Positions 11,001 through 14,000 of a stretch of 64,000 bases of DNA are shown in pieces. The stretch is from assembly GCA_964036295.1 (NCBI GenBank), contig OZ038464.1:3707001-3771000 (forward strand), written 5' to 3'. The stretch is from Plumapathes pennacea (taxonomy: Eukaryota > Cnidaria > Anthozoa > Antipatharia > Myriopathidae). Below the pieces are notes generated by a model. That model had not been told where the DNA came from, made no database searches, and saw only the letters and a program-made list of their open reading frames with translations. The stretch's first letter is position 1, and each line of letters starts with the position of its first letter. Both the position numbers and the translations under genes were made by a program.

Positions 11001-14000
11001 TTGACAGTTCCTTGCCCATCCTGTGGTTTATGACTTGATCTACAAAAAGTGGTATGGCAGTTCCCTAGAGGGCAAGGACAGAAAAGGATGGCGCATATGG
11101 ACGTTTTTGCATCTTTGGACACTTCTTGACATGCTACTGTTCCCACTCTTCTTCTTGATGTTTGAAGTGTGTCACCGCATCAAAGGGGAAAGTAAGTAAA
11201 ATGCATCCATACGATACCGCTGCCATTAGAGTTGGATACTGGAGATGATTTCCTTTTTTAAGATTATCACTGAAATATAGAAACTAAAAGTCGAAAGGTC
11301 GCCTGAGATACAACAGGATTTTAACGCCGTGGAAGCTAACCATGTGTTAAAGGTCAAGCCTGAATCGTTGTACACATTTTATGTACTTGAAAGTTTATGA
11401 TAACCCGTTATACAAATGGCTGTACAAAATACTAAATGTCTATTGCAAATTCTGTGCTAATTAATTTTTGCTCATGTTATGGCAAGTTCTCGACACAAAA
11501 ATAACAAAGCTATAAATTAATTGAACTTTCCTTTCCGAGGAGGCCGGGTTCCTTCAATTAAAGTGCACATAAGCCCAAAAATGATATCTTTGCAATCGAA
11601 TCTACATGACGGAAGTATGTTGACTATTAGAATAAGTCTGCGTTTTAACGCTGCGCCTTTTAGTTATAAAGGTTTATACTTTGAATATGGTAATGCGTGA
11701 CGTCAAAGAAGGAACAATTTATTATACAAAATCTTGTTGGCAGAGATAATTGACATTTTATCAACGTCCATTTTATATTTGAATTCTGTGTAAATGATTT
11801 CACCAAATACTTTGTATGAATCTGGGAACAGTTCCAATCACGAAGAGAAAGAAATAACATTGAATTACTCCTTTGACGTCACGTCATTACCATATTTGAA
11901 ATATAAACCTCTATAACTTATAGGCGCAATGTTGAAACACAGAAATAATCTAATAATCAACTATTTACTTTATGTAGAATCTATTGTGAAGATATCATTT
12001 TTGGGCTTATGTGCATTTTAACTTATATTAGAGCATTGATTCCTAAGCATATTGATCAGAGTTTTCTGGCCAAGTCTAAATAAAGCAAATACTAATTAAG
12101 TATAATTATGTAAGTAAGACCTATTTAATGACGGTAACACAAAATAGTACAAATTACTACAAAAAGACAGCCCTCTTGAGCTACCACAAGCATTGCACGA
12201 ATTACAAAAACTGCAATTTAATTGTCCGGTTCCTGGTTCCAGGTACTCTGATCCAGGTTTTTTCGCTTTAAACAAAGCCGAATTTGTTGTCTTTTCTAAC
12301 TGCGTAACTGACACTGGCCAGAAAAATAACGTAAAATAATACTGTCTTAGCAGTTTGTTGTTCGTGACATATCTTCACACTTACATTTTATTTTTAGAAT
12401 CTAAAAATCCAGAACCAAAGAATCCAGAACCAAAGAGTTCTTATGGTAAGAAATATAAGTAACTGTCATTATTATTATTCTGATTTTGCAACGTTAAGTA
12501 TCAAAAGGGGATGTCTACAAATTGGGGGTCAAAAACAAAATCTGGTATATATGTATATATATATTTTTTTTCTTTATTTTTTTAATTTTTACTATTAGTT
12601 TGCCATTGTTCTACATTTTTTCGCTTTTTGTTGATTTTATATTTTGTGTGTTTCTTTTTTCAGAGTCGTACAGGCACTACTTCGAAACACCTTATTTTGT
12701 CTACGTGAAGGACACTATCAGTTATTTTGCCCTTCTCCTGCTCCATTGTGCCCTCTGCCTTTCAACTTCCACCATTTCATTCAGCGGAATTGAGCTTGCC
12801 ATCATCGTGTTCTTTGTGGGACGGATAATGATGGAATTGGATCAATTTTTTAAAGACAATAAGGAAAATTCCAGGTTTTGGAAATACATTACCAAGTACT
12901 TTAGATAATACTTCCCCCCATCTTAGTAAAATATCTAGACTTTCGTTATCTTTTTTTTTTCTTATCTTTGATATTCTCCCTTGACTCTTTGACTCAATTT
13001 CTTTCACTAGAACGCTTCCTAAGGACAGAGGGGAAAGGCCAGTTCTTTGGAAATACATTACCCTGTACTTTAGATAAGACCTTCCGCACGTTGGTCAAAT
13101 ATTTAGACCTACGCTATCTTTTCTTTTCTTTGATGTTATTGACTCTATGACTTGATTTCTTTCATTAGAACGCCTCCTAAGGACAGAGGGGAAAATTTTA
13201 GCCTTTGGAAATACATTACCATGTACTTTAGGTAAGACGTCCCCCATCTTGATAAAATATTTAAACTTTCGTTATCTTAACTTTATGTTCTTGACTCTAT
13301 GACTTGATTTCTTTCACCTGAACGCTTCCTAATATGTGAAAAATGAAAATTGACAGTTTATACTATTGCCAGACGGTGTGCGCACTACGACCGCAAAACA
13401 TCTCGGATGAATGGAAAATTTTCGTCACTTTCTCCAAGTCGCGGTTGAGTTAACATTCTAGTTGGCTACTTCCGAAGCCAAGAAAATCAGTCGGCAAACT
13501 TATCACGCCCTTGCTTTTGTTCTAACGTGAAATTCGTCCAAAGTTATCCATAAATACAAAGGCGATAGTCCATTAAATAATACAATTTATTACACGACTT
13601 CACAATTTCGAGTGCAAATACGGGCCAAAACGAGTGCAAAAATGGGAGCGTATTGCACTCGTCAGGAACCAGATCAACTAGTTTATTAGCTTACATGATC
13701 AATTTTCGCAAACAAAGTTTACGAACGCGTCATATTTTGTTCCATTTTGCGTGCGGCGAAGTCGTATAATAAACAATTTATTATATGGCACTGGTCTACG
13801 CACGTTTGATTGGTCAATTTTACCGGTCCATAACTTACTGGACGGACCTCAAAATCCGTTTGCACATGTGGATCGCAAATGATTACTCGAAAAGTTGCTA
13901 AACGTTTCCATAGAAGGCCCAGAAGTGCAATGAGAAGTTTAAACGTTCCGGATACTCAATGTTAAGTTATGATAATCTGGGAAAATGACCGTTACAAAGA

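Follow-up and report, generated by a model that had tools for sequence, protein, structure and literature searches.

How can a gene stay in frame after the end of one of its exons has been copied in tandem and the original splice donor has been lost? The question is posed by a channel gene in the window, the whole 64,000-nucleotide stretch analyzed here (C3:3707001-3771000, in a genome of 290 Mb on 24 contigs). Outside the repeated region, the gene was modeled with 18 hand-placed exons, from an ATG at 5099 to a TAA ending at 32073; every one of the 17 joins keeps the frame, with canonical GT/AG borders and no stop. The gene and the two exons that flank the repeats are as follows:

5099..32073, forward strand: gene of a TRPC-like channel that has a SPRY-like region at its C-terminus
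12664..12874, forward strand: exon A, 211 nt, covering the S1-S2 region; use of the relocated donor would make it end at CAG|GTTTTG
16931..17281, forward strand: exon B (S3 onward), beginning R-DTWNVLDF

Assignment to the TRP channels, as put forward in the preliminary description of this locus, is supported by an Ion_trans domain above the Pfam cut-off (E = 8.4e-7) and by TRPC4 as the best solved relative (E = 2.1e-16); the two-exon fragment alone matched toward TRPM2. TRPC channels carry N-terminal ankyrin repeats, and none was detected here among four Pfam families at E ≤ 0.1, with the N-terminus set by hand at the first ATG. On these sequence features the channel is best described as TRPC-like, a TRP family member nearest to TRPC. 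The SPRY match of 24.6 bits lies below the curated Pfam cut-off of 26.3, and coral homologs carry SPRY (PF00622), often together with VWFA (PF00092). Protein searches returned 6 and 24 proteins, the larger of them after scoring the 7992 candidates with the most shared words. These relatives come from the stony corals Oculina, Pocillopora, Montipora, Stylophora and Porites and also from Nematostella, and one of the 24 is fungal (6e-5). An anthozoan host is therefore probable. Identity over the useful part is at most 42%, so that transcripts of the homologs do not report the splicing of the array exon; matches of 57-58% are short pieces of Actinostola proteins. Within the same genome, a large family of TRPC-like loci (L009-L057) is spread over C3 (3.64-4.29 Mb and 6.73 Mb), C4 (3.12-3.18 Mb), C2 and C6, with many members in tandem on C3.

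Several further features were observed in the gene. A small exon at 12398-12445 consists of 15-nt repeats (NPEPK), and the paralog P2, ~76 kb downstream on the same contig, has one additional 15-nt unit there, in frame (C3:3794.70-3794.76 Mb). The hand-placed donor at 27659, CAG|GTTTGATC (CAG|GTTTG), is unusual and conserved in P2. Two similar ~460-bp elements (11558-12021 and 21240-21698), each within an intron, end in long inverted repeats with outer arms of 57-60 nt that are 84-85% complementary, and look like non-autonomous DNA transposons. Reverse-transcriptase-like ORFs, recognized by eye, lie at 22100-24430 in the intron between the exons ending at 21989 and starting at 24544.

The repeats themselves were detected by Tandem Repeats Finder at 12863-13332 (period 158, 2.9 copies, 77% matches, score 531), with a unit of ~158 bp that comprises the tail of exon A and the start of the following intron. 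A repeat search resolved three diverged copies with start-to-start spacings of 169 and 158, the homology beginning at ~12854, about 10 bases further upstream and within exon A. The bases that follow TTTAG are ATAATA in copy 1 (12905), ATAAGA in copy 2 (13074) and GTAAGA in copy 3 (13232):

12854..13022, forward strand: copy 1, with the old exon tail (12854-12904) and the first part of the intron; 12875-12904 would now be intronic
12875..12876, forward strand: putative replacement donor GT (CAG|GTTTTG), derived, since five comparable single-copy paralogs have AGCC or AGAC
12905..12910, forward strand: former donor position of copy 1, now ATAATA, where reading through runs into a stop (AGA TAA)
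13023..13180, forward strand: copy 2, with the 63-nt frame 13011-13073 open, acceptor CACTAG present and donor lost (ATAAGA)
13181..13332, forward strand: copy 3, with exon tail and intact donor GTAAGA at 13232-13237

CAG precedes the GT at 12875, which stands in phase 2, and CAG|GTTTTG is present in P2 too, where the lost donor of copy 1 reads ATAGGA and read-through gives AGA TAG, again a stop. Three tandem copies of an exon end, loss of the donor from the first two with GTAAG kept in the third, and an upstream GT in the matching phase had all been proposed from inspection of the window, and all are borne out. Because the window copies are only 73-81% identical in pairwise comparison and a separate, related array of five copies lies in P2 on the same contig (C3:3795.5-3796.3 kb), an assembly artefact or a chance resemblance is ruled out.

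Paralogs within the same genome provide the means to judge the ancestral state. Exon A as query gave 24 matches and exon B 25, the close ones mostly on C3. At 19 of the 24 exon A loci the exon ends in a single AG|GT[A/G] donor of phase 2; these 19 are not all independent, as L013 and L014 are almost identical over the part compared. AT donors together with a 157-158-bp array at the exon end (Tandem Repeats Finder) occur at two loci, the window and P2, and the donor pattern gave no call for the remaining three (L025-L027). L011 (C3:4294.4 kb) holds the unit unduplicated from end to end, with exon tail, GTAAG and an intron containing TTTCTTTCACTGGAACGCTTCCTAATATG. Among the single-copy introns, a pyrimidine tract is followed by ACTAG in L012 and L015, by ACTGG in L011 and by ACTATAAT in L016, so that AG is present in two of four; L012 (C3:6729 kb) also has tandem arrays of 76-77-bp period upstream of exon A. 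The gained segment is a tandem copy of neighboring sequence and the unduplicated paralogs show the ancestral structure, which supports tandem duplication as the cause, as originally suggested.

The copies also record the order of events. Copy 1 of the window groups with copy 1 of P2 at 96/91 and copy 2 with copy 2 at 97/99, and this grouping by position across genes indicates that the triplication predates the window/P2 gene duplication. Both genes likewise share the loss of the old donor and the GT at 12875, placing these two events before the gene split. Copy 3 forms no clade; 24% of bootstrap trees give it a single origin. Part of the reason is the chimeric nature of P2 copy 3: its exon tail is of copy-3 type (47/51 to window copy 3) and its distal intron of copy-1 type (68/70 to P2 copy 1, 43/70 to P2 copy 5). 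A single unequal crossover of two three-copy arrays would account for the P2 order c1-c2-(c3/c1)-c2-c3, in which the copies are spaced by 157, 168, 157 and 153. The acceptor TTTCATTAG, the GTAAG and an open 63-nt frame are all kept in copy 3 of the window and in copies 3 and 5 of P2, and P2 copies 2 and 4 have lost both AG and GT and contain stops. In window copy 2, GT alone has been lost, with the AG kept and the frame open, so an open frame by itself discriminates little.

These observations lead to a candidate answer, to which we assign a probability of roughly 45%: after loss of the original donor, exon A may be joined to exon B through a cassette exon supplied by the tandem duplication.

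13169..13231, forward strand: proposed 63-nt cassette exon, phase 2-2, in frame and open, encoding (R) + 20 residues + (R)

In this scenario, the tandem duplication took in ~51 nt at the end of exon A and ~107 nt at the beginning of the intron, the junction running from intron '...CTTCCTAA' to exon 'TTTTAAGGACAG...' via a 3-nt TAA match, and the intron segment brought along a silent acceptor-like motif, a pyrimidine tract with TTTCACTAG. Because this motif lies 63 nt upstream of the copied GTAAG donor, every extra copy would constitute a ready-made 63-nt exon of phase 2-2. Copies 1 and 2 afterwards lost their donors by mutation from GT to AT, and the end of exon A would have moved 30 nt earlier, to the derived CAG|GT. 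Exon A would now be spliced from 12874 to 13169 and the cassette from 13231 to 16931, lengthening the S2-S3 linker by 11 residues relative to the ancestral form; in P2, unequal crossover of copies 3 and 1 would have produced five copies and two cassettes. The candidate 63-nt exon with acceptor TTTCATTAG occurs once in the window and twice in P2 (C3:3795840-3795902 and 3796165-3796227).

Which sites of the array are used, and in what proportions, we infer from the splice signals. Matrices were trained on 32 donors and 46 acceptors from the window gene and its paralogs, with 317 AGs and 394 GTs as decoys; since few sites went into the matrices, some of them paralogous, the scores give a ranking and no probability. 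None of the 394 decoy GTs reaches the 12.6 of donor 13231. Acceptor 13168 is moderate, with a score of 4.9 that 5% of the 317 decoy AGs equal or exceed and 36 of the 46 training acceptors surpass; this acceptor (TTTCTTTCATTAG) is intact, together with the donor, in P2 copies 3 and 5 as well. The relocated donor at 12874 is poor: it scores 0.8, below 30 of the 32 training donors and equalled or beaten by 18% of the 394 decoys, and on a generic matrix it scores 0.3, the lowest value among the donors of the gene, of which there are 16 others. On the latter matrix, another weak in-phase donor at 12895 (CAA|GTACTT) scores 1.2, and the ATAATA of copy 1, considered as a site for AT-AC type splicing, scores –6.4. 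One other donor of the gene as modeled, that at 27659, also reads CAG|GTTTG. A search of the same genome for retrocopies spanning a spliced junction, with 16 candidates scored, found none.

The weakness of both candidate donors favors a different explanation, namely a real splice defect. The gene would then yield truncated or low-level transcripts (retention ends in ...KYFR-stop) or rely on another weak donor such as 12895, and its frames elsewhere would survive owing to the short time elapsed or to gene conversion with paralogs. To this we set the comparison of window and P2, which covered 15 exons, leaving out the exon at 12398 (15-nt in-frame insertion) and the last two. The 15 exons differ by 22 synonymous and 60 nonsynonymous changes and contain no stop. 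Gene-wide dN/dS is 0.73 (bootstrap 0.46-1.32), and mismatches amount to 3.76% in exons and 4.47% in introns, a difference that is not significant (p = 0.15); both measures are compatible with neutrality, and hence with a defect, so the evidence for constraint comes from stops and indels. If exons mutate like introns, ~4 stops would be expected by chance, with a probability of 0.017 of finding none, and ~16 indels, compared to the single in-frame indel of 15 nt observed in exons (introns: 70 over 9659 aligned bases; p = 1e-5). Moreover, the array and its AT donors are older than the window/P2 split, yet both genes keep their frames. We consider a splice defect unlikely on these grounds; frames kept in both genes, also downstream of the array, suggest that there is probably some in-frame splice path through it.

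Three such paths exist, each in frame: a direct join, the inclusion of 30 nt and the inclusion of 63 nt would give proteins of 849, 859 and 870 aa, respectively. They differ in the S2-S3 linker. The preliminary description placed the array there, and its position supports this, with the E..Q pair that ends S2 on one side and the N..D pair with which S3 begins on the other. In the structure of TRPC4, as far as it is described in PMC6079076, residues E417, Q420, N435 and D438 hold a putative cation. The number of residues from Q to N would be 13, 23 and 34 for the three paths, compared to 14 in TRPC4, 14 in Nematostella P0001, 23 in L011 and 44 in L016; the 34-residue linker predicted for the 63-nt path falls inside the paralog range of 23-44. 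In the single-copy paralog L016 (C3:4167.4 kb) the linker has become longer in another way, by added length within the exon itself (KKKHKKKKDSQRKDGEREDITCWKDRRKTC). Measured from E to WN in the 22 of 30 fetched relatives that could be parsed, the linker has 14 residues in three Nematostella proteins and 25-82 in the other 19 (coral or unnamed). The linker is thus naturally very variable and a change in its length is evidently tolerated, so that a gating role, earlier suggested for small changes in this loop, is possible but unsupported.

The structure was modeled for the coral-type homolog P0028, since no uninterrupted translation of the window yields the spliced protein. The model is of moderate confidence (mean pLDDT 70.1, pTM 0.64) and has TRPC4 (8wpn) as its best fold match (E = 3.9e-13). 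In it, S2 is predicted to extend into the linker. The copied segment maps to a short helix (TLRDYVR) that precedes S3. By sequence and by fold, via P0028, the window protein resembles TRPC channels (mouse TRPC4, 5z96; PMC6079076, so far as that report covers them), including the conserved E..Q / N..D cation site that flanks the linker. It differs from TRPC4 in having no detected ankyrin repeats, a SPRY-like C-terminus, and a linker that is far longer and variable.

These comparisons also bear on the direct join, in which exon A at 12874 is spliced straight to exon B at 16931, the copies are intronic remnants and the linker is 10 residues shorter. Its 13 residues from Q to N resemble the 14 of TRPC4 and of P0001, and it would account for the missing purifying selection on the copies: between window copy 3 and P2 copy 5 the cassette has 5 nonsynonymous and 1 synonymous substitutions, and 3 and 1 between window copy 3 and P2 copy 3, so that the cassette, over few sites, leans toward neutrality. 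However, the direct join discards W-K-Y-I-T-x-Y-F, where the P0028 model places the short helix, and YF, YL or YI precedes the junction in 19 of 19 paralog loci parsed. It also requires the same weak donor at 12874 and leaves the strong internal donor 13231 unused, and for these reasons we regard it as improbable.

The remaining path is that of the preliminary description, which follows the classical AG|GT tandem-duplication route and restores the ancestral exon length exactly.

13202..13231, forward strand: 30-nt microexon as first proposed, less likely; acceptor TTTTAG ending at 13201, joining exon B at 16931 in frame

The new acceptor claimed for copy 3 is present (TTTTAG|CC), and the path would give the ancestral 23-residue linker. 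It is true that the 30 nt are added in frame, but the frame-perfect fit is no independent evidence, because the donor after 12874 and the acceptor before 13202 occupy the same repeat position and the fit is automatic. Acceptor 13201 has no pyrimidine tract, lies in purine-rich surroundings with several nearer AGs, and scores –6.6, below all 46 training acceptors and near the median of the 317 decoys (50% are as high). In P2 there is no AG at this place in copies 3 and 5 (TTTTGTCC, TTCTGACC). Microexons are exons of ~3-27 nt that are spliced in frame, and the candidates here measure 30 or 63 nt. A 30-nt microexon as the main product is thus quite unlikely, and the 63-nt exon is the better candidate. 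Skipping of exon A was rejected, since its 211 nt would break the frame.

If the 63-nt cassette is used, the locus would likely represent a variant of intron/exon gain by tandem duplication. Few recent gains of introns or exons have been proven, according to PMC4974935, which includes an RNA-seq-supported intron gain in a potato RdRp gene by tandem duplication across an intron-exon boundary. As in that account, the duplication here spans an exon/intron border, intronic signals would be re-used, and a new donor would arise from exonic sequence so that a piece of exon becomes intron (10 nt in potato, 30 nt proposed here). In potato, however, the 3' border (acceptor and exon start) was copied, whereas here it is the 5' border (exon tail and donor); in addition, the acceptor here is an intronic decoy, the original donor was lost and the array has grown to three and five copies. 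Gain of the AG|GT type described by Rogers (PMC4974935 and PMC2891723, to the extent that they set it out), with donor and acceptor from one repeat position, matches the 30-nt path. It differs in that the segment here includes intron and a real donor, and the AG at that position is decoy-like in window copy 3 and absent in P2. Novel intron positions in Drosophila that arose through tandem duplication or sliding, as presented in PMC2891723, similarly replace an old position nearby (<32 nt; 30 nt here) and have weak signals, but there the duplication lies within coding sequence and here it crosses an exon-intron border, with an additional exon as a result. Mutually exclusive exons that stem from tandem duplication (the subject of PMC9741552) likewise line up several copies of exon sequence within a gene; here, in contrast, copy 1 is no separate exon, whole exons are unduplicated, and acceptor and donor occur together only in copy 3 of the window. 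P2 has two units with both sites, but these are 63-nt units that could both be included. Among the matches listed by literature searches, no case with a duplicated 5' border was found, which does not prove that there is none.

Since the unit carries a donor and, at a spacing that is a multiple of three, a latent acceptor, a crossover would add or remove an in-frame cassette. It is conceivable, if doubtful, that the array is self-expanding, with unequal crossovers adding or removing whole in-frame 21-residue cassettes and the linker varying in length by copy number and alternative splicing; the window with one cassette and P2 with two would then be two states of this process. One genome holds the unduplicated unit and arrays of three and five copies in paralogous genes, from which the order of events can be read: first the duplication, then the old donor lost and a new GT gained, and finally the unequal crossover. 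If the 63-nt reading is true, copying of a 5' exon border can create a working exon from an intronic AG that had been silent, which mirrors the 3'-border case, and the exon gain would adjoin the cation site in a channel of TRP type, in which the effect of linker length is open to direct testing.
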